A program made the position numbers and the translations under genes. This document shows, in pieces, positions 23,760-38,484 of a DNA stretch of 64,000 nt. Every line of letters starts with the position of its first letter. Within the stretch, counting starts at the first letter, position 1. The DNA lies in the NCBI RefSeq assembly GCF_006874585.1, contig NZ_CP029761.1, forward strand, positions 2,429,001-2,493,000, read 5' to 3'. This DNA is from Sphingomonas sp. IC081. GTDB lineage: Bacteria; Pseudomonadota; Alphaproteobacteria; Sphingomonadales; Sphingomonadaceae. The notes under the pieces were generated by a model, which made no database searches, was not told the origin of the DNA, and worked only from the letters and a program-made list of their open reading frames with translations.

Positions 23760-24539
23760 TCAAGATGCTGGCTTCTCCTTTCTGGCTTTTGGCGCAGCGG
23801 TGCTGGCACGGAAGCGGAAGCTGTCGTTTCCGGTTTCCAGGATGTGGCAGTGGTGGGTTAGCCGATCGAGCAACGCGGTGGTCATCTTGGCATCGCCGAA
23901 CACGCCAGCCCATTCGCTGAAGCTTAGGTTGGTGGTGATGACGACGCTGGTGCGCTCGTACAGCTTGCTGAGCAGATGGAAGAGCATGGCTCCGCCCGAT
24001 GGGCTGAAGGGCAGATAACCCAGCTCGTCGAGGATGAGCAGGTCGAGACGTAGCAGGCGTTCTGCCAGCTGGCCGGATCGGTTCATGGTCTTTTCCTGCT
24101 CAAGCGCATTGACCAAATCGACCGTGGAGAAGAAGCGGACCTTCTTGCGGTGATGCTCGACGGCCTGGACGCCCAGCGCAGTTGCGATATGGCTCTTGCC
24201 GGTTCCGGGCCCGCCAATCAGCACGACATTGTCGGCGTTTTCCATGAAGTCGCCCTGATGAAGCTGGCGGACGAGGGCTTCGTTGATCTCGCTGGCAGCA
24301 AAGTCGAAGCCAGCCAGATCCTTATAGGCCGGGAAGCGGGCCGCCTTGATTTGATAGGCGATGGACCTGACCTCGCGTTCGGCCATCTCTGCCTTCAGGA
24401 GTCCAGCGAGCATCGGCACGGCAGCATCGAAGGCAGGCGCGCCCTGCTCGATCAGTTCGTCGGCGGCCTGAGCCATGCCGAACATCTTGAGGCTGCGCAG
24501 CATGACGACGACCGCGGCGCTGGCGGGGTCATGACGCAT
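23760..24539 (-). CDS. istB: IS21-family helper ATPase IstB
   Basis: This is a 259-residue DnaC-like AAA+ ATPase that assists the IstA transposase and target selection. Walker A is GGPGTGKSH at residues 109-117 and Walker B is [12 protein letters not shown]. The start overlaps the istA 3' end by 11 bp, typical of coupled IS21 genes. The reading frame is intact. Confidence 0.95.
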
Positions 24540-26049
24540 GGCGGATATCCCTCAGCCTGTCATAGCGAACGACATTGGCCTCGGGCTCCTGCGTCAGGCG
24601 CAGGGCTTGAGGCGCATCGATCGGCGAAGCTGGAGGCGCCTTGCCGTCGATGAGGCGATGTAACACGTTGAGAACGTGAGTCTTGGTGGCGACACCGGCC
24701 CCCAAAGCCAACTCGACCGCGCTCAACACAGCCTGTTCGTCGTGATGCAGAACGAGAGAAAGTATCTCGACCATCTCCCTGTCGCCACCAGGGCGCTTGA
24801 GCAGATGGCCCTGTAACTGCCGGAAGGCTTCGGGCATCTCGAGGAAGGGAGCGCCATTACGCAAGGCGCCGGGCTTGCGCTGGATTACCGCCAGATAATG
24901 CCGCCAGTCATAGATTGTGCGTCCCGGCTTGTGATGAGAGCGCTCGATGAGCCGGGCATGTTCGCACACGATCTGGCCTTCGGCCGCTATGACCAGACGA
25001 TCAGGGTAGATCCGCAGGCTGACCGGTCGGTTCGCGAAGGAGGCAGGTACCGAGTAGCGGTTGCGGTCAAAGGCGATGAGGCAGGTCGGCGACACGCGCT
25101 TGATCTGCTCGACAAAGCCATCGAAGGGCCGGCCCAGCGGCATCAGGCAGGAAACTTCCTCGGCATGCGCATCGGCCACCGTGCCGGGCATGACGCCATG
25201 CTGGATATCGCTCCATTGGACGATGCATTGCTCTTCCAGCCAGGCGTTCAGCTCAGCCAGGCCAGGGAAACTGGGCATCGGTTGCCACAACCGGCGCCGA
25301 GCGTCCTGGACGTTCTTCTCGACCTGACCCTTCTCCCAACCAGAAGCCGGATTGCAGAAATCCGTCTCGAACAGATAGTGGCTGGCCATGGCGGCAAATC
25401 TTGCGTTGACCTGCCGCGCCTTCCCGGTCCCGATCTTGTCGACAGCGGTCCTCATATTATCGAAGATCCCACGCTGGGGCACGCCGCCCAGCACTCGGAA
25501 CGCCTGCGTCAGCGCGTCGAACAGCATCTCATGGGTCTGGAGCAGATAGGCGCGGACGATGAAGGCGCGGCTATGCGCCAGTTTGGTATGAGCGACCTGC
25601 AGCTTCGTGGGCTTGCCATCCAGTACGGCATAGTCCTCGCTCCAGTCGAACTGGAACGCCTCGCCAGGCTGGAAAACCAGGGGCACGAATGTTCCACGCC
25701 CGCTGGTCTGCTGCTCATATTGCAGCTCGGTCCGCCATCGTCGGGCAAAAGCGGCAACCCGGTTATAAGAGCCATCGTATCCCAGCTCGACCAGATCAGC
25801 ATGCAACTGCTTGGCAGTCCGCCTTTGTTTACGGGACTTCTTGGATTCCACTCGCAACCAGGCCGTCAGCTTCTCGGCGTAAGGGTCGAGCTTGCTCGGC
25901 CGGATCGGAACCTTGAAGCTCGGCTCAATCGCGTCAGAACGCAGATATTTGCGGATGGTATTGCGGGACAGGCCGGTCCGCCTCTTGATCTCCCGAATGG
26001 AGATCTTCTGCCGGAAATGCCACCGGCGGATCACACTGAGTAAGTCCAT
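24529..26049 (-). CDS. istA: IS21-family transposase IstA
   Basis: This is a 506-residue DDE transposase counted from the ATG at 26049, which has GGAGTGATCG just upstream. An N-terminal HTH (residues about 17-36, [20 protein letters not shown], core [12 protein letters not shown]) precedes the catalytic residues Asp135 (FQFDWSED), Asp197 (IFDNMRTAV) and Glu244 (GQVEKNV). All are present and no frameshift is seen. Confidence 0.95.
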
Positions 26050-26143
26050 GTCGATCACTCCACGACCCTCCGACTGGCAGCCGGAGGCGAGGGAAACATG
26101 GGTCAATTCTCAATGGTAATTTATACGCCCCCCGGGTCACATC

Positions 26144-26578
26144 TCAGTGGCAATCAACACCGTAGAGTACCAGCGGAGCGCCCTGAGACAAGAGGCGCCC
26201 CGCGCCTGCCATCAATCCAAGCGTTGCCGACCATGGGCTGATGTGGATCATGTTGATGCAGACCAACGCATCAGCGCTCTCCAGCGGCCACTGCGCAGCC
26301 GCTGCATCAAGAGCAATCGGGACCATCAGGTTGTGCAGCCCCTCCGCCTCGCGCCATGCGGCGATAGAAGCACGGGCATTGGCGTCAGGATCGCTCGGTT
26401 TCCAGAAGATTCCCGCCAAAAATCGAGAGAAATAGACCGCATGTTCGCCAGTCCCTGCAGCGATCTCGAGTACAGTGCCCGACGTGGGTAGCACCTCGCG
26501 CAGCACGGCCAGAATGGGATCGCGATTACGCATCGCAGCCGGAGCATAGCGACGGTCGGAATGTGACGAGCCGGACAT
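26144..26578 (-). pseudogene. DUF938 (UPF0585) SAM-dependent methyltransferase, N-terminal fragment
   Basis: The fragment starts MSGSSHSDRRYAPAAMRNRD and shows the SAM-binding stretch LEIAAGTGEHAVYFSR and CINMIHISPW, diagnostic for DUF938. It stays in frame until the IS21 insertion after APLVLYG and then gains four foreign residues and a stop inside the IS terminal repeat. Its C-terminal part is at 23466-23670. It lies downstream of the chemotaxis operon in the same direction, starting 25 bp after the last che-operon stop. Confidence 0.9.
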
Positions 26579-26977: not shown

Positions 26978-27418
26978 TCAGGCCGCCGCCAACGCATCCC
27001 CGGATGTCCCCAGCGTCTGGAGATCAAGCACCATGACCATGTGCTCGTCTATCGCCACCAGCCCCTCGAGAAATGGGATCACCCCGTCCTGTCCGGCACT
27101 GGGCGGCGCCTGCAAGGTCTCGGAATGAAGCGCGACGATGTCCGACACCGAATCCACGATCAGACCCTGCGACTGCCCATTGACCTGACAGACAATGATG
27201 GCGTGGCGCGGCGTGGCCTCGGTCGGCGTCCAGCCCAGCCGGGCAGCAAGATCGATCACCGGCAATACCGTACCGCGCAAGTTGACCACGCCTGCCACGT
27301 AATGCGGGACACGCGGCATCGGCGTTACCGGGGTCCAGGCGCGGATCTCGCGGATCGCCATGATGTCGAGCGCGAAGATCTGGCCGGCGACTTCGAAGGT
27401 GATGAGTTCGCGGTGCAT
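26978..27418 (-). CDS. cheW: Chemotaxis adaptor CheW
   Basis: This is a 146-residue SH3-like adaptor linking chemoreceptors to CheA at the cytoplasmic array. It contains TFEVAGQIFALDIMAIREI, VVNLRGTVLPVIDLAARLG and DSVSDIVAL, all characteristic (trimmed cores AIREI, NLRGTVLPVIDL). ATG at 27418 is preceded by GGAGG. It is the seventh gene of the minus-strand che operon, after cheY. Confidence 0.92.
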   Translation of the reverse strand: MHRELITFEVAGQIFALDIMAIREIRAWTPVTPMPRVPHYVAGVVNLRGTVLPVIDLAARLGWTPTEATPRHAIIVCQVNGQSQGLIVDSVSDIVALHSETLQAPPSAGQDGVIPFLEGLVAIDEHMVMVLDLQTLGTSGDALAAA

Positions 27419-27432
27419 GACCGAGGCCTCCT

Positions 27433-27804
27433 TCAGTGGGCGACGCGGCGGACCGCCGCGACGAGCTTGTCGGTGTCGAAAGGCTTGACGATCCAACCGG
27501 TCGCGCCGGCTGCTCGCGCACGCGCCTTCTTCTCGTCCGAACTCTCGGTTGTCAGTACCAGGATGGGGCGATCGCGATGTCGGGTGCCTCCACGGACCTG
27601 CTCGATCAGGCCAAAGCCATCGAGACGCGGCATATTGATGTCTGTTATGACGACATCGACTTCGTTCAGCGCCAGCCATTCCAGCGCAGAAACGCCATCG
27701 TCGGCCTGCGACACGTCGAAGCCGTTGTTCGACAACGCATGATTGAGCAGCGCCCGCATGGATGCGCTATCGTCAACGGTCAGGACTCGGGTGGTCTTGG
27801 ACAT
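27433..27804 (-). CDS. cheY: Chemotaxis response regulator CheY
   Basis: This single-domain receiver has 123 residues. The acidic pair is TVDDSAS, the phospho-acceptor is Asp55 (ITDINMPRLDG), the switch Thr is in LVLTTESS and the Lys is in IVKPFD. It would carry the CheA signal to the flagellar motor or another output. ATG at 27804 is taken because it gives the normal CheY length; the frame extends upstream into cheD without a reason to start there. It sits between cheD and cheW. Confidence 0.93.
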   Translation of the reverse strand: MSKTTRVLTVDDSASMRALLNHALSNNGFDVSQADDGVSALEWLALNEVDVVITDINMPRLDGFGLIEQVRGGTRHRDRPILVLTTESSDEKKARARAAGATGWIVKPFDTDKLVAAVRRVAH

Positions 27805-27838: not shown

Positions 27839-28381
27839 TTAAAACAGTTCGACTTCGCCGCGCGGTTCCCGCCGGACCACCGGCTGGACAGCCACTTCCG
27901 GAGCCTCGGCAACGGTACGGCAGCGCACGAGACCGGATGCCGGTCGAAAATCGACACGGCGCGCGCAAGTACCGCCGAGATCCTCACGCATTAGCTCGAT
28001 GCGCTCTCGGACCAGGAAACCCCGCGCGAATTCAGCATTGGCCGTGCCAATCCGTTGCATACCCGCTCGGATGTTCGCGCCGCCGTACAGATGGGCTCTG
28101 AGCCGCTCCTTGCGGGCACCATAGGCGAGCATCTCGTTGATCAGCATCTCCATGAGGTAAACCCCATAGTGGACATCGACCTCCCCCCGCGCGTGCGTAG
28201 CGGGCGGCTCGGAAAGCAGAAAATGGTTCATGCCGCCCAGTTCGATCACCGGATCATAGAGGCACGTCGCCACGCACGAGCCCAAGACCGTACTGAGTTC
28301 CACCTTGGGGCCCGCACTGACCCTGAACTGCCCCTGCAGCACCGTAAGGTGCGTACTCGCGGGTGAATTTGCAGATGCCAT
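27839..28381 (-). CDS. cheD: Chemoreceptor glutamine deamidase CheD
   Basis: It deamidates receptor glutamines and often pairs with CheC or CheY-P feedback. From ATG 28381 the protein has 180 residues, with catalytic Cys36 in VLGSCVATC and His53 in GGMNHFLL, the CheD active-site pattern. A C-terminal extension (about 25 residues, Arg/Glu-rich) goes beyond the usual core. The start lies 4 bp after the cheB stop. No cheC is seen in the window. Confidence 0.9.
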   Translation of the reverse strand: MASANSPASTHLTVLQGQFRVSAGPKVELSTVLGSCVATCLYDPVIELGGMNHFLLSEPPATHARGEVDVHYGVYLMEMLINEMLAYGARKERLRAHLYGGANIRAGMQRIGTANAEFARGFLVRERIELMREDLGGTCARRVDFRPASGLVRCRTVAEAPEVAVQPVVRREPRGEVELF

Positions 28382-28385
28382 CTTG

Positions 28386-29459
28386 TCATGCCGCCTTGTT
28401 GAGGGCGTGGCCGGCAATCCGGTCGACCGGGGCCACTACATTTGCCGCACCGAGCGAAATTGCCACGCGCGGCATCCCGAACACCGTGCAAGTGCGTTCA
28501 TCCTGCGCAATCGTATGCGCGCCGGCCTGACGCATGGCCAGCAACCCCCGCGCACCGTCCTGCCCCATGCCGGTAAGAAGAATGCCGACCGCCTCAGCCC
28601 CCACGACCTGTGCCACCGAGGCGAACAGGGCATCGACGCTCGGGACATGACCGCTGATCGGTTCACCGCGCCGCATCTTCCCCAGCAGCGTGCTTCCGTC
28701 CCGATCGAGCTTCACAGTCAAATGGCAACTGGCGGCGGCTGCAAGATAGACATTTCCAGGCAACAAGGGCGTATCCATGTCGGCAGCCTGGACGTGCGCC
28801 GGACAGGCCAGATCGAGCGTCCGGGCAATAGCCGGAGCAAAGCGCGGGTTGACGTGCTGGACGATCACGGTCGGCGGACAATCGATCGGGAAGCCTCCCA
28901 GCACGACCTGCAACGCCTCCACACCGCCTGTCGAGGAGCCGATCGCGATCAACCGGGTTTCGCGCCGGATCGAGAGCCGACTTTCAGCGGCTACCATGGT
29001 AGCAGCGCCAACTCGGACATCCCGCGGCCGCTGCTCCGGCCTCGATTCGATTCGAGCATCGAAACGCACTTGCGCCGCATCGCGGATTAGATCCGCCAGT
29101 TCCCCGCCGTCCTGCAACGCCAGCTTGCCGCCGGGATCATACTTCGCATAACAATTGACTGCCCCGAGCGCGAGTGCACGGGCAGTCACCTCGTTACCGT
29201 CCTGGGTGGCGCCCGACACCACGATCACCGGGGTCGGACGCAAGGCCATGATCTTTTCGAGAAAGTCGAGCCCGTTCATGCCTGGCATCTCGATGTCGAG
29301 CGTCACCACGTCGGGATCGAGCTGCTTGATAAGAGCCCTCCCCTCGGCCGCATCAGAAGCGGTGCCGACAACCTCGATGTCCCCCTGCTCGCGCAGCCTC
29401 GACATCAGGATCGCCCGCATGGTCGGCGAATCGTCGACGATGAGAACCCTGATGCTCAC
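28386..29459 (-). CDS. cheB: Chemotaxis methylesterase/response regulator CheB (active form)
   Basis: This 357-residue receiver-methylesterase has its phospho-acceptor at Asp55 (LDIEMPGMNG). The catalytic triad is complete: Ser176 (IGSSTGG), His202 (VIVQHVNPRF) and Asp301 (LLTGMGQDG). It removes methyl groups from receptors and deamidates glutamines. The 5' end overlaps the cheR stop by 4 bp. It contrasts with the second CheB homologue at 33100-34137, which lacks the histidine. Confidence 0.93.
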   Translation of the reverse strand: MSIRVLIVDDSPTMRAILMSRLREQGDIEVVGTASDAAEGRALIKQLDPDVVTLDIEMPGMNGLDFLEKIMALRPTPVIVVSGATQDGNEVTARALALGAVNCYAKYDPGGKLALQDGGELADLIRDAAQVRFDARIESRPEQRPRDVRVGAATMVAAESRLSIRRETRLIAIGSSTGGVEALQVVLGGFPIDCPPTVIVQHVNPRFAPAIARTLDLACPAHVQAADMDTPLLPGNVYLAAAASCHLTVKLDRDGSTLLGKMRRGEPISGHVPSVDALFASVAQVVGAEAVGILLTGMGQDGARGLLAMRQAGAHTIAQDERTCTVFGMPRVAISLGAANVVAPVDRIAGHALNKAA

Positions 29460-30325
29460 GCCGCGCTCCTCTGGTAGATGGTTGGACCGACCAGCCTAAG
29501 CACCTGCGTTGCCGGACCGGTCACGCGCTCGGAATGGCCAATGTAGAGAAAGCCTCCCGGCTGCAGGGCCTGGGCATAGCGGGCAACAAGCCGCTCCTTG
29601 GTTTCGTTGTCGAAGTAGATCATCACGTTGCGGCAGAAGATCGCATCAAAGCGCCCCTTCATCGGCCACTCGCCTTGCAGGTTGAGTGTCCGGAACCGCA
29701 CCAATGCACGCGCGGCATCGGCGATGCGGACCTGCCCTCCGCTCGATGCACTCCATGCCGACCGCAGCGCGGCCGGCACCGGATCGAGATCCCCCGCCGC
29801 ATACGTCGCCGCCTCGGCCTTTGCCAGCGCGTGAGGAGCGATGTCGCTCGCCAGCAGCACGAAATCACGCCGGGCCATGTCAAGGCCAGCACTCCGGTCG
29901 CTGCCCAGCATGGTCATCACGATTGACCACACTTCCTCGCCGCTCGAACATCCCGCCGACCATAGACGCACCGGCTGCCCTGCGCGCAAGCATTCGATCG
30001 CATGGGGCCGGACATGCTCGGCAAGATGCTCGAAGTGGTGCGCTTCACGATAGAAGAAGGTGTGATTGGTGGTCAGCGCGGCCACCGCACGCCCCATCTC
30101 GGTGCTGTCTGCGCGCATCATTTCGACATAACGCGCAAAGCTGATCGCGCCCGTCTCGCGCACCAGGGGAGCAAGACGCGAATAGACCAGCATCGACTTG
30201 CGCTGCGAGAGCACGATGCCCACCGCATCATAGACAATCTTGGCGATCGCCGCGAAATCGGCGTCCCCATAGATGTCCGGGCTGACCCCGGGGACCTGTT
30301 CGGTCGCCGTTGCCATAGCGTTCAT
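29456..30325 (-). CDS. cheR: Chemotaxis methyltransferase CheR
   Basis: This 289-residue SAM-dependent methyltransferase methylates receptor glutamates. It shows TTNHTFFYREAHHFEHL, the SAM-binding WSAGCSSGEEVWS, and FDAIFCRNVMIYFD (cores FFYREAHHF, SAGCSSGEE, CRNVMIYF). The start overlaps the cheA stop by 4 bp, so translation is probably coupled. Confidence 0.94.
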   Translation of the reverse strand: MNAMATATEQVPGVSPDIYGDADFAAIAKIVYDAVGIVLSQRKSMLVYSRLAPLVRETGAISFARYVEMMRADSTEMGRAVAALTTNHTFFYREAHHFEHLAEHVRPHAIECLRAGQPVRLWSAGCSSGEEVWSIVMTMLGSDRSAGLDMARRDFVLLASDIAPHALAKAEAATYAAGDLDPVPAALRSAWSASSGGQVRIADAARALVRFRTLNLQGEWPMKGRFDAIFCRNVMIYFDNETKERLVARYAQALQPGGFLYIGHSERVTGPATQVLRLVGPTIYQRSAA

Positions 30326-32619
30326 GCGACCTGCCTCTCATGACCGGCGCGATCCTGGGCAGGCAGAGCGCAGGCGACCAGACCGTCGACATCGACAATC
30401 AGCGCCACCCGGCCATCGCCGAGGATGGTCGCCCCCGCCACGCCTTCCACGGGACGAAAATTAGTGGCGAGACTTTTGATAACGAACTGGCGCTGGTCCT
30501 GGATATCATCGACCAGCAAGGCTGCCTGGCCCGCGCTTTCGGTATCGACAACGATGAGCACCCCCTGCTCTGGATGCCCGGCAAGCCTATCCTCCGAACC
30601 CATCTGGGCACCAAGTGCCTCACGCAGGGAAATGACCGGAATGAAACGGCCACGCACGTTGAGCATCGCCTGGCTCGATCCCAAGCCCTGCACATCATCC
30701 GGCGAGGGCCGCAAGCTCTCCACCACATGTGCAAGCGGGACCACCAGCGTCTGGTCGCAGACATTGACTATCATGCCATCGGAAATTGCCAGCGTAAGCG
30801 GCAGCGTCAGGATAAAAGCCGTCCCCTTGCCGGGATTGCTTTCGATAGTGATACGCCCGCCCAGATCCTTCACGTTCTGACGCACGACATCCATGCCGAC
30901 CCCGCGCCCGGAGATATTCGAGACGACCTGCGCAGTGGAGAACCCTGGCGCGAAGATCAGGTTGTCAATCTCTTCGGCGGAAAGCTGTGCATCGGCACTG
31001 ACGATGCCCTTCTCGATCGCCTTGGCCAGAACCCGCTCGCGGTTGATCCCGGCGCCATCGTCGGCAATCGAAATGAGGATGCGGCCGGCACGGTGTTCGG
31101 CCGAAAGGGTCAGCGTACCCTCCGGTGACTTGCCCGCGGCGATGCGCGCTTCGGCAGTCTCGATGCCGTGATCGACCGCGTTGCGGATGAGGTGGGTCAA
31201 CGGCTCACCGAGCCGCTCGATCACCGTCTTGTCGAGTTCCGTGGTTTCGCCGAAAACATCCAGCTTTACATGCTTGCCCGTCGAAGCCGCGAGATCCCGT
31301 AAAATGCGAGGCACACGGCTGAATACGCTCCCAATCGGCTGGGCTCGGATCGACATCGCGCTTTCCTGGATGTCGCGCGTCAAGCTCTCGAGCAGTGAAA
31401 GTTCCTCGCTGGCATTGATCGTCACCCCTTCAAGGCGCTGAACCAGCATGGCTTGGGCGATTACCAGTTCGCCAACCAGATCGATCAGCCGATCAAGTTT
31501 GAACAGGTCGATGCGGATCGATTGACCTGCCCCGGATACCGGAGCAGTTCCCCCAGCAGGAGCCGCGGAAGCGGTCGCTGCAGCAGTTGCCGCCGGTTCA
31601 GCGGCTGGCGGCAAAACTGCCACCGCGACCGGCGTTGGCATAGGCGGCGGAACAGGAACAGGTCGGCTGGAAACCGGCTCGGCTTCTGATGCCCTTCCTG
31701 TCCCGTCCGGCAAGCCATCCGCAGCCTCGGTCACGGCCGGGCCGACTTGCGCTGAAATGGTGGTCGGATCCAGTTCGGTCGAAGCTACAGCGTCTTCGGC
31801 CGAGTCATCGCCGAACACCACCGCGCAGTCATCACCGATGAAGTCGAAGATGTCGCGCACTGCATCTTCGCTCACTTCGGCGGGCATCGCAAAAGTCCAG
31901 GCCAGATATCCCTCGGCAATGTCGAGACTATCGAGCGGCGGCACTTGCGAAACGTCGCAGGCAGCCACACGCCCGCCGAGTGATGCGACTTCACGCAGCA
32001 TGAGCAGCGGTTCGCTTCCGTTGCGCATGGCTCCGGCTCGCGGGCGCACCTGGACATGCCAACTGGCAGGTTCGACCGCGCCGTCTGCAGTTGTCGCACT
32101 GGCGGGAACATCGAATCCACCGGTCAGATCGTCGAGCAGCGAATCGAGATCTATACCGAAATCATCATCACCGCCGGAAGAACTCGTCACAGCGGGGTCA
32201 GGCTCGCGATCGGATTCAGCAGCATGCGCCGCGCCCGCAACATTGGCCGCCATCGCCCCTTCCATCTCGGCGATCAGCGCCGCATCGGCAGGTGCATCCC
32301 CGCCCTCGCGTGCGGCCTCGACGTGATCAGCCAGGGTGTCGAGCGCACGCAGCAGGAGATCGACGAGTTTCGGGTCGATCGGCACCAGGCCCTCACGCAC
32401 GTCGGACAGCAGCGTCTCGAATGTATGAGTATAAGCCTGAAGCGCGCCAAAACCGAAAGCGCCGGCACCACCCTTGATCGAATGAACCCCGCGAAACACC
32501 GCGTTCACGGTATCCGAATCGTGTGTACCCGCCTTGCACGCCGCGAGCCCCGCTTCGGCGGCAGCCAGCGACTCTTCGCACTCAGCGAAGAATATCTGCT
32601 GGATTTCTTCGGGACTCAC
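30322..32619 (-). CDS. cheA: Chemotaxis histidine kinase CheA
   Basis: This 765-residue kinase has an HPt domain with His46 (GVHSIKGGAGAFGF). A long acidic and Pro/Ala-rich linker (about 110-370) follows, replacing a typical P2 layout. The dimerization and ATPase domains show HLIRNAVDHGIE, ADDGAGI and GRGVGMDVV. A C-terminal CheW-like domain ends the protein. It phosphorylates CheY and CheB in response to receptors. The start overlaps the stop of the upstream STAS gene by 4 bp. Confidence 0.94.
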   Translation of the reverse strand: MSPEEIQQIFFAECEESLAAAEAGLAACKAGTHDSDTVNAVFRGVHSIKGGAGAFGFGALQAYTHTFETLLSDVREGLVPIDPKLVDLLLRALDTLADHVEAAREGGDAPADAALIAEMEGAMAANVAGAAHAAESDREPDPAVTSSSGGDDDFGIDLDSLLDDLTGGFDVPASATTADGAVEPASWHVQVRPRAGAMRNGSEPLLMLREVASLGGRVAACDVSQVPPLDSLDIAEGYLAWTFAMPAEVSEDAVRDIFDFIGDDCAVVFGDDSAEDAVASTELDPTTISAQVGPAVTEAADGLPDGTGRASEAEPVSSRPVPVPPPMPTPVAVAVLPPAAEPAATAAATASAAPAGGTAPVSGAGQSIRIDLFKLDRLIDLVGELVIAQAMLVQRLEGVTINASEELSLLESLTRDIQESAMSIRAQPIGSVFSRVPRILRDLAASTGKHVKLDVFGETTELDKTVIERLGEPLTHLIRNAVDHGIETAEARIAAGKSPEGTLTLSAEHRAGRILISIADDGAGINRERVLAKAIEKGIVSADAQLSAEEIDNLIFAPGFSTAQVVSNISGRGVGMDVVRQNVKDLGGRITIESNPGKGTAFILTLPLTLAISDGMIVNVCDQTLVVPLAHVVESLRPSPDDVQGLGSSQAMLNVRGRFIPVISLREALGAQMGSEDRLAGHPEQGVLIVVDTESAGQAALLVDDIQDQRQFVIKSLATNFRPVEGVAGATILGDGRVALIVDVDGLVACALPAQDRAGHERQVA

Positions 32620-32900
32620 AGCGCGGCCTCCTCAAAGAGTTCGGACTCCAGGCCCGTCAGTTGCACGGCATCGAGCAGAGCCGGGGACGCAGTGATCACC
32701 GCTCCGCCGCCGCTTCGCCGCGCCGAAACGAGTAGTTGCAGCACGGCCTGACCGACATGCTCGACCCCGCTGCCGTCGATGCTGATGGGCTGAAGACCCA
32801 CAGCTGCCACGAACTCCGGCAACAGCACTTCGGCCGCGGCCCGGTCGCAACGGGCGGGAAGGACTATCCCAGCCCCACTTGCCTCGCTGATCGCTGTCAT
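32616..32900 (-). CDS. STAS-domain protein, first gene of the che operon
   Basis: This 94-residue protein has a STAS (anti-sigma antagonist-like) fold: alternating strands and helices, with the ISIDGSGVEHVGQAVLQLLV segment (core VEHVGQAVLQLL) where a regulatory serine would sit. ATG at 32900 has GAGGAAA just upstream. It overlaps cheA by 4 bp, so it is the leader gene of the operon. Similar small STAS proteins head che clusters in other proteobacteria. The Ser58-like residue of true SpoIIAA proteins is not clear here. Confidence 0.75.
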   Translation of the reverse strand: MTAISEASGAGIVLPARCDRAAAEVLLPEFVAAVGLQPISIDGSGVEHVGQAVLQLLVSARRSGGGAVITASPALLDAVQLTGLESELFEEAAL

Positions 32901-33099
32901 CGAAATTTCCTCGTCGCATTGCCCCACATCGTCTTCTTCCGAGCAGGAAGAGAACGGGCTCGACGCCGTTCTATGCCCAGCCATGCCAACGGTGCGTTGT
33001 GCGCATTCTCAGTCGAAGCCCTTATCTCCGTTAAGGAAATTGGTCGGCTAATCGGCGGTATCGGCATGGTGAGAAATCTTAGGAAGAAGGCGAAACCCG

Positions 33100-34137
33100 A
33101 TGCATGACGCCCGCGTACTCGTGGTCGACGATTCAGCAGCGATGCGCGCGTTGTTTTGCGACGTCCTGGAGCAGTCCAAAAACGTCGTCGTCGTCGGCAC
33201 CGCCGCAAGCGCCGCCGAGGCCCGCAGCCAGATCGCCCAACTGCAGCCCAATGTCGTGACGCTTGACGTCGAGATGCCGGGGATGAGCGGAATCGAATTC
33301 CTCGAGGAGATCATGAGCACCAACCCGATGCCGGTGGTCATGCTTTCCGCCCTTACTCAAAGCGGCACGGAAACCTCACTCAAGGCCTTCGAACTGGGGG
33401 CGGTGGAGTGCTTTCCAAAGCCGCTCAAGGCCACACCCGAACAATTCGCCAAGACGGTCGGCAAACTGGGCAAAGTGGTGGTCGCCGCAGCCAACTCGAA
33501 CGTGCGCGACCGTCCCCGCCATCGCGGACCCAAGGCCGAGAGCACCGAGGGCTATACGCCCAATGGCAAGATCGCCGCTTTCAGTACCTCCATGGGCGGC
33601 GTCGACGCCTTGACCGAAGTGCTCGGCCACTATCCAAAGAATTGTCCACCCACAGTCATCATTCTTCAGACCGAACCAGCCCTCGCCGAAATGTTCATCA
33701 CCCGTGCCAACAAGGACTGTGCATGCACTATCAAGGCGGTCGCCGATGGAGCGGAACTGGTGGCGGGAACGGTCCATATCGCGTTCGATCCCGGGAAACA
33801 CGTGATCGTGGAGCCGGGTAGCCCGCCGAAACTGCGGACGGTCGAACGCGAACCGGTCGAAGGCTTCCGCCCTTCCGCAACGCTGCTGTTCGGCACTATC
33901 GCGCGCGGCGGACTTCCCGCCATCGGCGCGGTGTTGACCGGTATGGGCGAGGATGGCGCAAAAGGTCTAAAACTCCTGCAGGCGGCGGGCTGTCGTACCC
34001 TCGCTCAGGACCGCGGAACGGCAACGGTACCGCAGGCGCCCGCGGCTGCGGTCGAGGCGGGCGCAGTCGATGCCGAATTGAAGCTGGAAGAACTTGCTGC
34101 CGATGTGCTGACCCAGTGCGGTGCGGCGGAGGGTTAA
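33100..34137 (+). CDS. CheB homologue lacking the catalytic histidine
   Basis: This 345-residue protein is divergent from the che operon. The receiver domain is normal, with Asp56 in LDVEMPGMSG. The methylesterase half keeps Ser164 (FSTSMGG) and Asp285 (TGMGEDG), but the residue matching His190 of Salmonella CheB is Thr191 (IILQTEPAL). The usual C-terminal FGMPREA is replaced by VPQAPAAAVEAG. It is therefore probably inactive as a methylesterase and may act as a receiver sink, an array adaptor or a regulator of the active CheB. Confidence 0.85.
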   Translation: MHDARVLVVDDSAAMRALFCDVLEQSKNVVVVGTAASAAEARSQIAQLQPNVVTLDVEMPGMSGIEFLEEIMSTNPMPVVMLSALTQSGTETSLKAFELGAVECFPKPLKATPEQFAKTVGKLGKVVVAAANSNVRDRPRHRGPKAESTEGYTPNGKIAAFSTSMGGVDALTEVLGHYPKNCPPTVIILQTEPALAEMFITRANKDCACTIKAVADGAELVAGTVHIAFDPGKHVIVEPGSPPKLRTVEREPVEGFRPSATLLFGTIARGGLPAIGAVLTGMGEDGAKGLKLLQAAGCRTLAQDRGTATVPQAPAAAVEAGAVDAELKLEELAADVLTQCGAAEG

Positions 34138-34314: not shown

Positions 34315-35868
34315 TTAATGTCCGCCCGAGGCCGGCTTCGCACCGCGAGGCGGACGCGGTGCAATCCAGATCGTGCAGGCTGCGATGAACAGCAGCACGG
34401 CACAGAGCGCGAAAACATGGACAGTGCCCAGCGCCGTGCCCTGCCCGTCGACGAGGTTGGCCAAAGTCTGCCGTGCCTGCGCCAGCGAGAACCCGGCGGC
34501 CTGAAGCTGGTCCATCGTCTGCTGCGCGCCGTTCATCGAGGCGGCCATGTCGGCGCTGTTGGCACGCGACATGTCTTCCCAGGTGGTCGTCACCAGAGCC
34601 GTGGCGATGGCGCTAGCAAGGGTGCGGCCGAAGTTGGCGATGCCCGCCGCGCCCGCCGTCTCGTCCGGATCGACCGAGGCGAGGCTGATCGTGGTCAGCG
34701 GCACCATGAACAGCGACACACCCACGCCCTGCACCAGCTGCGGCCAGGCAATGGTCCAGAACGCCACGTCGGTGGACCAGCTGGTGCGGAAGATCGCGAC
34801 GATGCCGATCCACGAAATGCCGAGGAACACCAGCAAACGCGGATCGAAGCGCTGCATCAGCTTGGGCACGAAGGGCGATGCGAAGACCGCCAGCACGCCG
34901 GAAAAGGCCATCGCCTCACCCGCCTGCGTCGCGGTGTAGCCCATCGAGGCCTGCAACCACTGCGGGATCACCACGACCGACGCGAAGTAAGTGCCGAAAG
35001 CGATGGTGAGCGAGAACGTCGCTGCCGAGAAACCGCGATGGCGGAAGACTTTCAGGTCCACCACCGGGTGATCCTCGGTCAGTTCCCAGACCACGAAGGC
35101 GATGAAGAAGATCACCGCGATCACCGCCAGCGCGACGATGAAGGGCGAGCCGAACCAGTCATGCTCGCGCCCGAGGTCGAGCATCATCTGGAACGCCGCC
35201 ACCCATGCGATCAGCAGGCCAAGACCGACAACGTCGATCGGCAGCTTGCGCGTGGGCGTCTCGATCCCGCGCAAGATCGTGAACAGGCCGAAGAAGACCA
35301 GCGCCACGATCGGCACGTTGATGAAGAAGATCCACTCCCACGACCAATTGTCGGAGATGTAGCCACCGACGATCGGACCGGCGATAGGCGCCGTCACCAC
35401 CGTCATCGCCCACATAGCCATGGCGCGGGGATGCATGTGCCTGGGGAAGATGCGCAGCAGCAGCGTCTGCGTCAGTGGCATCAGCGGGCCGCCGCAGAAG
35501 CCCTGTCCAAGGCGGAACAGCACCAGCAGCGGGAACGTATGGGCGATACCGCAGAGCGCGGAAAACAGGCCAAAGCCGATCAGCGAGAGCAGGAATACCC
35601 GCAGGCTGCCGAAGCGCCCTGCGAGCCAGCCCGTAAGCGGCACGCAGATTGCCTCGGCCACGGCGTAGGACGTGATCGCCCAGGTGCCGTTCGACACCGA
35701 CACCCCGAGCCCGCCCGAAATGTGCGGGATCGAGACGTTGGCGATCGTCATGTCGAGCACGACGACGAAGTTGGCCATCGCCAGCAGGAAGCCGGCCACC
35801 AGCAACTTCGCGCCGGTGAACGTTGGCCCGTCAACCGCCCCGGCAGCAGCGGGGGGAGCGCCGGCCAT
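34315..35868 (-). CDS. emrB: DHA2-family MFS drug exporter (EmrB-like)
   Basis: This 517-residue inner-membrane transporter has about 14 hydrophobic segments. The N-terminal LDMTIANVSIPHISGGLG is the classic DHA2 signature, and FRLGQGFCGGPLMP matches motif C/A-type regions. It would pump drugs or other hydrophobic compounds through the EmrA adaptor and the outer-membrane channel encoded upstream. The ATG overlaps the emrA TGA by one base. Confidence 0.9.
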   Translation of the reverse strand: MAGAPPAAAGAVDGPTFTGAKLLVAGFLLAMANFVVVLDMTIANVSIPHISGGLGVSVSNGTWAITSYAVAEAICVPLTGWLAGRFGSLRVFLLSLIGFGLFSALCGIAHTFPLLVLFRLGQGFCGGPLMPLTQTLLLRIFPRHMHPRAMAMWAMTVVTAPIAGPIVGGYISDNWSWEWIFFINVPIVALVFFGLFTILRGIETPTRKLPIDVVGLGLLIAWVAAFQMMLDLGREHDWFGSPFIVALAVIAVIFFIAFVVWELTEDHPVVDLKVFRHRGFSAATFSLTIAFGTYFASVVVIPQWLQASMGYTATQAGEAMAFSGVLAVFASPFVPKLMQRFDPRLLVFLGISWIGIVAIFRTSWSTDVAFWTIAWPQLVQGVGVSLFMVPLTTISLASVDPDETAGAAGIANFGRTLASAIATALVTTTWEDMSRANSADMAASMNGAQQTMDQLQAAGFSLAQARQTLANLVDGQGTALGTVHVFALCAVLLFIAACTIWIAPRPPRGAKPASGGH

Positions 35869-37019
35869 CAGTCAGCGTCCGTCAGTTCGACTTCCGCGTC
35901 CATCGACAGGCCGATGCGCAGCGGATGCTCCTGCAGTTCCTTAGGATCGAGTTCGATGCGCACCGGCAGGCGCTGCACCACCTTGATCCAGTTGCCGGTT
36001 GCGTTCTGCGCCGGGATCAGCGCGAAAGCGGCGCCGGTGCCGCCGGCAAAGCCGATCACCTTGCCGTGGTACCGGACCTTGGAACCGTAGAAGTCCGAGG
36101 TCAGCGTGGCCTTCTGGCCGGGGCGCACGTTGCCGAGCTGCGTTTCCTTGAAGTTCGCATCGACATAGAGCTGGCCGACCGGAACCACGGTCATCGCCAC
36201 ATTGCCGGCCTGAACCTTCTGTCCCACCTGAATGGCGCGCTTGGCGATCACACCGTCGATCGGCGCGCGCACGATGGTGCGTTCGAGATCGAGCTTGGCC
36301 TGATCGACCTTGGCCTGGGCCTGGCGGATCTGCGGCGCGGTGCTGAGCGTGGTGCCCTGGGTGATGGCGACCGAGGCGTCTTCCTGACGGCGGGCGCTGA
36401 CGGCAGCGGCCTGCATCTGGGCCAGCATCGCGCGGGCCTCGCCTTCCGACGCCTTGGCCGAGGCCAGAGCCTCACGCGCGGTGGTCAGGTCTTCGGCGGA
36501 AACCGCCCCCGAACCGACCAGAGCGGCGCGGCGTCCGTAATCGGCCTGCGCCTTGGTCAGCGTGGCCTTCGCGGAAGCGAGCTTCGCCTTGGCCGAGTTG
36601 ATCTGCGCATCGCTGGCGTCTGCCGAAGCGCCCAGCGCCCGGTTATTGGCAAGCGACTGGCCGTAAGTGCGCTGCGCCGAAGCCAGTTCGGCCTCGGCCT
36701 GTTCAAGCGCGATCCGCTGGTCGGCATCTTCGATGCGGAACAGCAGCTGGCCCTTGCGCACCGGCTGCGTGTCTGTGACCAGCACTTCGACCACGCGGCC
36801 CGACGTGAGCGGCGTCACCTGCGCATTGTCACCGCCGACATAGGCATTGTCGGTCGAGACCGAGCGGCTGCCGATGAAGAGATCGTAGGCGCCATAGAGC
36901 ACCGCGACGCCGACAACGGCGGCGCCAAGGCCCAGCAGCAAAGGCTTGCGGCGGCTCTTGCCCAGCACGCTGGTGTCTCCAGCGTTTCCTGCGGGCGAAC
37001 CCTGCGCTTCGTCAGTCAT
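35868..37019 (-). CDS. emrA: HlyD/EmrA-family membrane-fusion protein
   Basis: This 383-residue adaptor spans the periplasm. One N-terminal membrane segment (about 20-45) precedes STDNAYVGGDNAQVTPLTSGRV, the EmrA signature (core TDNAYVGGDNAQVTP). A long helical hairpin (about 105-220) and a C-terminal beta domain with VGQLYVDANFKETQL follow (core DANFKE). The ATG overlaps the outer-membrane gene's TGA, so translation is coupled. A longer 397-residue reading exists, but the internal Met at 37019 fits the coupling better. Confidence 0.9.
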   Translation of the reverse strand: MTDEAQGSPAGNAGDTSVLGKSRRKPLLLGLGAAVVGVAVLYGAYDLFIGSRSVSTDNAYVGGDNAQVTPLTSGRVVEVLVTDTQPVRKGQLLFRIEDADQRIALEQAEAELASAQRTYGQSLANNRALGASADASDAQINSAKAKLASAKATLTKAQADYGRRAALVGSGAVSAEDLTTAREALASAKASEGEARAMLAQMQAAAVSARRQEDASVAITQGTTLSTAPQIRQAQAKVDQAKLDLERTIVRAPIDGVIAKRAIQVGQKVQAGNVAMTVVPVGQLYVDANFKETQLGNVRPGQKATLTSDFYGSKVRYHGKVIGFAGGTGAAFALIPAQNATGNWIKVVQRLPVRIELDPKELQEHPLRIGLSMDAEVELTDAD

Positions 37020-38484
37020 TGTCAGCGGCCTTCTTGCTGGAATTGTCTTCGTAACCGCCACCGAGCGCGCGCTTGAGCGCGACGTCTTCGGAAAGCGTCC
37101 GGAAATGAGCGTCGACCGCCTGCTGGCGGGCGTCGAGAGCGGTGGTCTGGGCGGTCAGGGCATCGAGATAGTTGCCGATGCCGCCGTGGTAGCGCTGGAA
37201 AGCAAGGTCCTGCGCGCGGGCGGACTTGGCCGCCGCGTCGGCGGCAGCGCTTTCCTGATCCTGCGCGGCATTGCGGCTTGCCAGCGCATCGGCCACGTCC
37301 TGAAGCGCGCCGATCACGGTGGAGTTGTAGCTCGCCACCGCCTCGTCATAGCTGCCGCGCGCCTGGGTGTAGTCACCCTTGAGGCGGCCGCCTTCAAAGA
37401 TCGGCAGGCTGATCGCGCCAGTGGCATTGCCGTAAGTAGAACCGGTCTTGATGAGGTTCGAAAGCCCCAGCGACTGGAGCCCGATCAGGCCCGAGAGCGA
37501 GATGTCCGGCATGAACGCCGCCTTGGCGACGCCGATGCGCTTGTCCGCCGCTTCCGCGCGCAGACGGGCGGCGACGATATCGGGACGACGGCCGACGAGG
37601 CCGATCCCGGCATCGGCAGGCAGCGCCGCGACCGGGATCGCGGTAATGGCAGTGGGGTTGATCGACAGGCCGCGATCGGGGCCGGCGCCCAGCAGCGCGG
37701 CCAAGGCATGGCGGCGCAGCAGGATCTGCTCGTCATTCTGCGACAGCGCGACGCGGGCCGAGGCGGCGAGCGCTTCGGACTGGCGCAGCGGCGCTTCCTG
37801 ATCGAGGCCCTGACGCACGCGCTGGCCGGTCAGGTCCACCAGTGCCTCGCGCGCCTTGAGCGCATCCTTCAGCGCCTCGCCCCGCGTGATCAGGCGGGCA
37901 AGGTCGAAGTAGGAGGAGACCACGTTGGACGAGATCATCAGCTCGGCCTGACGGGCATCAGCCTCGGCAGCCATACGCTCGGACGTGGCGGCGGCAAGCT
38001 GCTTGCGGTTCTTGCCCCAGAGATCGAGGTCGAAGTCGCCCGAAAGCGCCAGATCGCCGGTGCTGTTCCAGCCCTTGGGAACATAGGCCTTGGGGAAACC
38101 GTTGTTGTAGCTCTGCTTGGTGAAACCCCCGGAGCCCTGCCCGTTCAGGCTCGGCAGGGTCGCGGCGCCCGCCACCTGGGCTGCGCCGCGCGCCTGCAGG
38201 ATGCGCGCCTGCGCAGAGGCGACATCCGGCGAGCCTGCAAGGGCTTCCGCCACCAGCGCATCAAGCTGCGGGTCGCCATAGGCGGTCCACCACTGCTGCT
38301 GCGGCCACTGGACAGCCTCGCTGGCGGAAAGCGACTGGCTGCTTTCCAGCGTTGAAGAAGCCCGCATCTGCGGCTTCGGCCCAAGGTCGGGCACCGCGCA
38401 GGCGGACAGCGAAAGGCCGACGGCCAGCATCGAGGCTGCCGCGACTCGGGGGAGTGTGATCGTACTCATCAGTACAGTTTTCAT
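37012..38484 (-). CDS. NodT-family outer-membrane efflux lipoprotein
   Basis: This 490-residue trimeric outer-membrane channel has a lipobox LSAC after a signal peptide, so it is lipid-anchored. QWWTAYGDPQLDALVAEAL and repeated alpha-helical hairpins (core WWTAYGDPQLDAL) are typical of NodT/OprM proteins. It completes a tripartite exporter with emrA and emrB in one operon. ATG at 38484 is used, with GAGG upstream; ATG at 38469 is an alternative that would start inside an operator-like dyad. Confidence 0.88.
   Translation of the reverse strand: MKTVLMSTITLPRVAAASMLAVGLSLSACAVPDLGPKPQMRASSTLESSQSLSASEAVQWPQQQWWTAYGDPQLDALVAEALAGSPDVASAQARILQARGAAQVAGAATLPSLNGQGSGGFTKQSYNNGFPKAYVPKGWNSTGDLALSGDFDLDLWGKNRKQLAAATSERMAAEADARQAELMISSNVVSSYFDLARLITRGEALKDALKAREALVDLTGQRVRQGLDQEAPLRQSEALAASARVALSQNDEQILLRRHALAALLGAGPDRGLSINPTAITAIPVAALPADAGIGLVGRRPDIVAARLRAEAADKRIGVAKAAFMPDISLSGLIGLQSLGLSNLIKTGSTYGNATGAISLPIFEGGRLKGDYTQARGSYDEAVASYNSTVIGALQDVADALASRNAAQDQESAAADAAAKSARAQDLAFQRYHGGIGNYLDALTAQTTALDARQQAVDAHFRTLSEDVALKRALGGGYEDNSSKKAADND

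Follow-up and report, generated by a model that had tools for sequence, protein, structure and literature searches.

What can a CheB-like response regulator without the catalytic histidine do beside a che operon whose own CheB is intact? This question is raised by a gene at 33100–34137 (plus strand) of the window, i.e. the whole stretch of 64,000 nucleotides of DNA that was analysed. The gene codes for 345 amino acids from an ATG start, and we use psB as the label for the family of its protein.

A CheB homologue without the catalytic histidine

The protein has a receiver domain (Response_reg, residues 6–111, 33115–33432, 78 bits) and a CheB_methylest domain (residues 162–335, 33583–34104, 135 bits), both Pfam domains scoring over the cut-off. 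In the receiver, Asp10, Asp11, Asp56, Ser83 and Lys107 are intact; the codon of the phospho-acceptor Asp56, assigned from the sequence and the family alignment, lies at 33265–33267. With the NCBIfam CheB model PRK00742, psB reaches 276.3 bits, which is under the cut-off of 293, and the operon CheB reaches 343.5 bits. When psB is compared to CheB as an enzyme, we find the two-domain architecture and the phosphorylation residues, but neither the triad nor the C-terminal GMP motif. The window's genome contains six CheB domains, and the five others have kept the histidine. Among the best 80 matches of a scan of named genomes, the closest named match is Novosphingobium clariflavum, with 99% identity over the psB protein.

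In a preliminary description of this DNA, Thr191 had been taken as the counterpart of His190 of Salmonella CheB. We find Gln190 (codon 33667–33669) opposite His190 and Thr191 opposite Met191: the alignment runs without gaps from Ser164 past position 190, and phmmer against the Salmonella (1a2o) and Pectobacterium (6ymz) structures, BLASTP and MAFFT are concordant. In BLASTP, Gln190 also pairs with His202 of the operon CheB. The claim that the catalytic histidine is missing stands nevertheless, and the error only concerns the residue that replaced it. Other observations of that description hold as well: Ser164 (codon 33589–33591) and Asp285 (codon 33952–33954, equivalent to Asp286 of Salmonella CheB) are present, the FGMPREA segment is rewritten (PQAPAAA in psB) and the operon CheB (28386–29459, minus strand) has the full triad Ser176-His202-Asp301. 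In addition, psB has Met in place of Thr165, Leu in place of Gln189 and Thr in place of Asp261; at each of these positions, 89 or 90 of the 90 other CheBs have the original residue. Thr165, together with Met283, is presumably important for CheB catalysis. In 6ymz, the triad is S165-H191-D287, which is offset by one from the Salmonella numbering (PMC7698151, in excerpt).

Loss of the triad across the family

The loss of the histidine in the window is not a chance event, since an intact Ser-His-Asp triad is found in 0 of 94 distinct psB proteins vs 90 of 90 other CheBs. The 94 have lost His only (70), Ser only (4) or both (20). At positions 164/190/286, the letters are SQD in 56, GDD in 11, SND in six, GAD in four and SPD, SRD and DHD in three each; DQD occurs twice and SSD, SGD, GQD, GED, NGD and EHD once each. 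All 90 other CheBs, the Salmonella reference among them, read SHD. Where His190 is lost, its place is taken by Gln, Asn, Pro, Arg and others. Four loci (L155, L184, L186 and L188) have retained His190 and carry Asp or Glu in place of Ser164, which is the opposite loss to that in Novosphingobium. The C-terminal (F/Y/W/H)GMP motif is found in none of the 94 psB proteins; among the other CheBs, 89 of 90 have GMP and one has GMA. Asp10, Asp11, Asp56, Ser83 and Lys107 are present in all 94, as is Asp286, and its persistence where Ser and His are both gone points to a structural role.

These counts are based on distinct sequences, where identical or contained sequences were merged (215 to 183), and they exclude aligned stretches shorter than 300 amino acids (the psB of L082, the CheBs of L077 and L147 and two CheB pieces of L041). 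All 94 counted psB proteins have full-length open frames. In Novosphingobium sp. ST904, the reading frame of the operon CheB is broken into two overlapping ORFs (L041, 4546–6221, minus strand), due to either a frameshift or an assembly error.

Membership of psB was assigned by a profile score of at least 333 bits or by position, and the triad was not a criterion. The scores of the two groups are close (lowest psB 335 bits, highest active CheB 327 bits) and the profile includes the window's own loss, so we tested the partition with a tree that omits the columns flanking Ser164 and His190 but retains those around Asp286. In this tree, from which near-duplicates and five divergent loci were excluded, 24 sampled psB proteins form one clade against 32 CheBs (support 100/100). 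His190 needs three changes on it and Ser164 also needs three, counts from which gain and loss are indistinguishable. In agreement with this, a rapid tree of 89 rows, which predates the fetching of six of the seven position-defined copies, placed 36 His-less rows and L155 on one branch (support 99). We consider it very likely that psB is no longer a CheB methylesterase, and judging from its receiver residues it can probably still be phosphorylated. That related bacteria have kept the broken copies suggests that these do useful work as a non-enzyme.

Gene order in the window and types of che clusters

In the window, psB is transcribed away from a minus-strand operon, from which it is separated by 115 intergenic positions (32985–33099). 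The first gene of the operon codes for a STAS-domain protein (32616–32984; Pfam STAS_2, 36.5 bits) that is CheS-like by domain and position. It is followed by CheA (30322–32619; Hpt, dimerisation, HATPase and CheW domains), CheR (29456–30325), the intact operon CheB, a CheD ORF (27839–28417) whose true start may be internal, the only CheY found in the cluster (27433–27804; the ORF is open from 27987 and an internal Met start was taken) and a CheW ORF (26978–27679; CheW domain at residues 92–223) whose true start is probably internal. Downstream of the operon lies an IS21-family pair (23760–26106, minus strand; IstB 23760–24539, IstA 24529–26106), which is adjoined by a DUF938 methyltransferase-like ORF (26144–26578). 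Beyond psB lie genes for EmrB-like and EmrA-like efflux proteins on the minus strand (34315–37061), and EmrB is likewise found there in several close relatives.

The position of psB differs between genera. In several of them, psB closes a cluster of genes that all point in the same direction, STAS-CheA-CheR-CheB-CheD-CheY-CheW-psB; in Novosphingobium and Erythrobacter-like genomes it lies upstream of STAS and is divergent from it. At one locus (L159 of genome G234), psB is found apart from its che cluster, beside an ORF partly similar to CheA. The motif GGTGAGATAC (at most one mismatch) occurs 95–123 bp before the psB start in 19 of 48 loci and in 7 of 1165 background stretches of 600 bp from the same loci. 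The motif may be a regulatory site common to the divergent promoters; no copy was found in L037–L046, the closest relatives of the window.

Of 60 sufficiently complete psB clusters, a single CheY was called in 47; another 11 contain one receiver within a longer open frame, which we read as CheY, and two (L060 and L145) end before the CheY position. A second type, STAS-CheY-CheA-CheW-CheR-CheB-CheY-CheD, has two CheYs and no psB. We examined ten such clusters, one of which belongs to the window's own genome; in the cluster at L190, one CheY is a receiver in a longer ORF (REC489). STAS was undetected in L183, L185 and L187, where similarity is weak. Since one CheY with psB and two CheYs without psB are a contrast of two cluster types, this pattern counts as about one evolutionary event. 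We also considered psB as a stand-in for a lost sink of the CheY1 type. In A. fabrum, cheY1 is by gene numbers the gene adjoining cheS (PMC12654446, in excerpt). The CheY of the psB clusters groups with the STAS-adjacent and not with the CheB-adjacent CheY of the two-CheY clusters, in a weakly resolved tree of 125 columns with many open forks, so this explanation is not supported in its simple form.

Distribution of psB across genomes

In 61 related genomes, we found 20 psB matches with at least 58% identity, including the window, all from the same genus; 18 of these came with loci, and the alignment comprised 17 sequences. The set was extended by the scan of named genomes (two peptide patterns, best 80 matches) and by 396 genomes of the order. 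A match at E≤1e-95 was found in 43 of the 396 genomes, and in two of these (G184 and G307) the match is the active CheB. The 41 profile-defined psB genomes all belong to the family of the window, in a search that was centred on the window and may miss relatives in other families. Seven more genomes (G168, G184, G216, G232, G315, G319 and G365) have a divergent psB directly after CheW, which results in a total of 48 of 396 genomes.

Most psB loci were found via psB itself, and the link to the cluster type can thus only be tested in genomes picked by CheA. A match to this CheA is present in 62 of the 396 genomes, of which 39 have psB by profile, seven have psB by position and nine (G307 and eight others) have a two-CheY cluster without psB; the cluster of G281 runs off its contig, and six genomes from other families were not fetched. 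Within the same family, psB is therefore present in 46 of 56 genomes with a CheA match, nine have the other cluster type and one (G281) is undecidable. In a set of 16 CheA loci that does not include G307, all six one-CheY clusters without a profile match had psB after CheW, and no psB was found in the fetched stretch of the eight two-CheY clusters. The remaining two loci are the incomplete cluster of G281 and that of G234, whose psB had already been placed elsewhere.

Within the genus, psB and this CheA occur together in 21 of 21 genomes; a further 12 genomes have neither, and ten of these 12 have FlhA. Thus, psB follows this che cluster and not flagella as such. FliM is missing or weak in many psB genomes; however, FlhA is found in 39 of the 41 profile-defined ones, so we rejected loss of flagella as an explanation, and the FliM gaps probably reflect divergence of the FliM protein. 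Two near-complete genomes (G288 and G337) have no match to this CheA or to FlhA and contain psB nonetheless, beside CheW in G288 (L144) and, in G337 (L153), as a fast-evolving copy with no che gene nearby. Two FlhA genes are present in the window's genome, one of them about 20 kb from the two-CheY cluster. This cluster is flanked by FliM and FlhA (G000, C1:144696–194638), and the second FlhA, with a lower score, is at C1:3826081; these are signs of two flagellar sets.

Selective constraint and structure

To compare the constraint on psB and CheB, we used 48 loci that each contain one psB and one operon CheB, resulting in 1128 locus pairs. The mean pairwise identity is 0.70 for the receiver and 0.46 for the effector of psB, compared to 0.64 and 0.62 in CheB. 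The gap between receiver and effector identity is greater in psB for 1125 of the 1128 pairs, which share loci and are thus not independent. The median dN/dS, from the 767 pairs with usable dS, is 0.22 for the psB receiver, 0.52 for the psB effector, 0.32 for the CheB receiver and 0.34 for the CheB effector. The psB effector has the higher dN/dS of the two effectors in 688 of the 767 pairs, with single psB values from 0.03 to 1.36. By these estimates, the psB effector is less constrained than the active one, yet under purifying selection on the whole, and the psB receiver is more constrained than that of CheB.

The constraint is unevenly distributed along the protein. Residues 94–138 (strand 5, helix 5 and an extension) are under tighter constraint in psB than in CheB, and Glu70, Phe105 and Pro106 are fixed in 94 of 94 psB receivers and rare in CheB. 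The gain in variability over CheB is greatest at 304–318, 319–333 and 184–198; for instance, segment entropy is 1.74 vs 0.94 at 184–198 and 1.74 vs 0.50 at 304–318. Conservation of segment 244–273 is about equal in psB and CheB.

The AlphaFold2 model of psB, based on 38 aligned sequences, has a pLDDT of 90.5 and a pTM of 0.88. Its best matches are 6ymz (Z 44.2, 336 residues, 2.3 Å) and 1a2o (Z 43.9, 342 residues, 2.6 Å), and 193 residues superimpose on 1chd at 1.8 Å. For the psB of L084, where Ser164 and His190 are both gone, the match to 1chd spans 182 alignment columns, also at 1.8 Å; how its domains are arranged is uncertain (pTM 0.59, full-length TM 0.53). Examined as a pseudo-enzyme, psB has kept the enzyme fold and is conserved by selection, as a clade that persists across genera with median dN/dS values below 1.

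Candidates for a rebuilt active site

The pseudo-enzyme reading of the preliminary description gains from the clade with its varied losses of Ser164 and His190, the missing GMP motif and the invariant phosphorylation site. What leaves some doubt is His226 (codon 33775–33777), which is present in most psB proteins that have kept the serine. Residue 226, which lies within strand 224–228 of the AlphaFold2 model, is His in 58 of 94 psB proteins vs 1 of 90 active CheBs, where Tyr is the rule (80 of 90). Furthermore, His226 tracks Ser164: it is found in 56 of the 70 psB proteins with Ser164 and in 2 of the 24 without it. The association may mark an active site that was rebuilt, or it may result from shared descent of the Novosphingobium clade.

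A psB that hydrolyses an ester or amide with a rebuilt site, using His226, another histidine or Ser-Asp chemistry, at least where Ser164 is kept, would fit this association as well as the retention of Ser164 in 70 and of Asp286 in all 94 members. We nevertheless consider it very unlikely. Tyr226 occurs in 14 of the 70 Ser-keeping proteins, several of them from Novosphingobium and some close relatives within this genus, and the link between His226 and Ser164 may be due to inheritance alone. The substitutes of His190 are varied, Ser is lost in 24 members and GMP in all, and Asp286 persists without both other residues. His234 was rejected as a replacement, as it is common to active CheBs (73 of 90) and to psB (93 of 94) and is kept even where Ser is lost. 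Glu192, in the motif Q-x-E-P, is not supported as a replacement either: Glu or Asp is found there in 86 of the 94 psB proteins, including members without Ser164.

Possible functions of psB

We tentatively favour a reading, still short of an even chance, in which psB is a regulator that can be phosphorylated but has no catalytic activity, draws phosphate from CheA in competition with other receivers and so acts as a sink or buffer, with its effector as a binding module. The phosphorylation residues are invariant, the output face of the receiver is conserved more strongly than in CheB and the effector lacks the triad, a combination best read as that of a receiver through which CheA phosphate is drained or buffered. 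The linkage of psB to one-CheY clusters and precedents in S. meliloti and R. sphaeroides (see below) also speak for this reading, and among the roles suggested in the preliminary description (phosphate sink, array adaptor or competitor of active CheB), a competitor under the control of phosphorylation agrees with the evidence. On this reading, psB descends from CheB and remains a response regulator, but the methyl esters of the receptors would no longer be its substrate. Its receiver would obtain phosphate from the CheA encoded next to it and would rival CheY and the active CheB as an acceptor, and psB would hydrolyse the phosphate or hand it back without any enzymatic output. Such a phosphoryl sink or buffer could tune the strength and duration of CheA signalling to CheY and CheB. 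The catalytically dead effector could serve as a phosphorylation-gated binding module that keeps psB closed or open, or that holds it at the array. Some observations count against this reading. A pure sink needs a receiver alone, yet the full-length effector is kept in all 94 members, from which psB proteins shorter than 300 amino acids were excluded by the length limit. In addition, G288 and G337 have psB without a match to this CheA or to FlhA, and the company of His226 with Ser164 (56/70) leaves some probability for a rebuilt active site.

Because the effector is kept, a strong rival, although we hold it to be unlikely, is an array adaptor or antagonist: phosphorylated psB would dock on the receptor, at its methylation helices or C-terminal pentapeptide, and block or guide CheB, CheR and CheD, as a natural dominant-negative CheB. 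This would explain that the effector fold is kept in the models of psB and of the Ser- and His-less L084, that the effector is mostly under purifying selection and that segment 244–273 is constrained about as in CheB. Two receptors of the window's genome have pentapeptide-like tails, DWAEF and DWSEF (L163 and L165), which resemble tethers of CheR and CheB and are two of the 11 receptor C-termini listed (19 MCP matches). In E. coli, an S164A CheB served in receptor-binding measurements (PMC8609364, in excerpt). However, the active-site segments 184–198 and 304–318 have lost much of their constraint. In the modelled pentapeptide pocket, 69 of 94 psB proteins have Asn in place of Arg134, which weakly disfavours competition for the pentapeptide, as only 41 of 90 active CheBs have Arg there.

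An effector that was recruited to another target, such as the motor, the STAS protein or another kinase, would make psB an output regulator of its own. The receiver residues Glu70, Phe105 and Pro106, the position of psB next to the STAS gene in rearranged clusters and its retention in G288 and G337 agree with such a new partner. If the effector had one conserved partner, we would expect a more distinct patch of conservation, whereas the segment comparison reveals no clearly conserved effector stretch besides 244–273 and the effector evolves fast, which renders this explanation improbable. The least credible explanation is that psB is a decaying, functionless remnant of a cheB duplication. It could account for the faster evolution of the effector and for the fast-evolving copy without che neighbours in G337, but not easily for full-length open frames in the 94 counted members, a receiver dN/dS below that of CheB and the presence of psB in 46/56 genomes of the family and 21/21 of the genus with a CheA match.

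Returning to the phosphate-competing regulator, we can extend it to a broader and more doubtful proposal: psB may be the standard eighth component of one class of Sphingomonadaceae che clusters, a CheB disarmed in various ways in different lineages that, as a phosphorylation-controlled non-enzyme, terminates or buffers signals in clusters with one CheY, where the sister clusters have two. If true, such a CheB would add a layer of control that the model systems of chemotaxis are not known to have.

Comparison to known systems

Few response regulators have been studied as well as CheB, whose output is equated with the demethylation of receptors. In the psB clade, the switch and the fold are kept and the catalytic residues are lost in various ways, which separates a phosphate-accepting role from the enzymatic role. 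psB thus offers a way of testing which share CheB has in chemotaxis by competing for the phosphate of CheA. There is a consequence for annotation as well, since a plain domain search labels psB proteins as methylesterases. Among the matches listed from the open-licence literature, we found no description of a CheB pseudo-enzyme; one may exist elsewhere.

When comparing psB to the CheBs of Salmonella (1a2o) and Pectobacterium (6ymz), we find the same two-domain fold throughout, with 33 and 35% identity, intact phosphorylation residues and the common company of CheA, CheR and CheD. The differences are Gln190 in place of His, Met in place of Thr165, the lost GMP motif and the PRK00742 score below the cut-off. 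In S. meliloti, CheY1 is a phosphate sink that is sharpened by CheS (PMC4214558, in excerpt), and CheS is a STAS protein (PMC12654446, in the excerpt cited above). Both CheY1 and psB add a second receiver to a cluster that has one CheA and a STAS protein; however, CheY1 has no effector, whereas psB is derived from CheB with the whole effector and would act as a sink only by inference. In R. sphaeroides, phosphorylated CheB2 is able to return phosphate to a CheA, so that here too a CheB-type receiver takes part in phosphate traffic; in contrast to psB, CheB2 is described as a methylesterase, and cells need its activity for normal chemotaxis (both from an excerpt of PMC2924250). Lastly, the closest parallel in the literature listed comes from Campylobacterota, which have an auxiliary CheB of the F3 class without a receiver domain (PMC9239204 and PMC9321776, in excerpts). 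This CheB and psB have each lost one of the two functions of CheB, but psB is the reverse case: it has kept the receiver and lost the catalytic residues.
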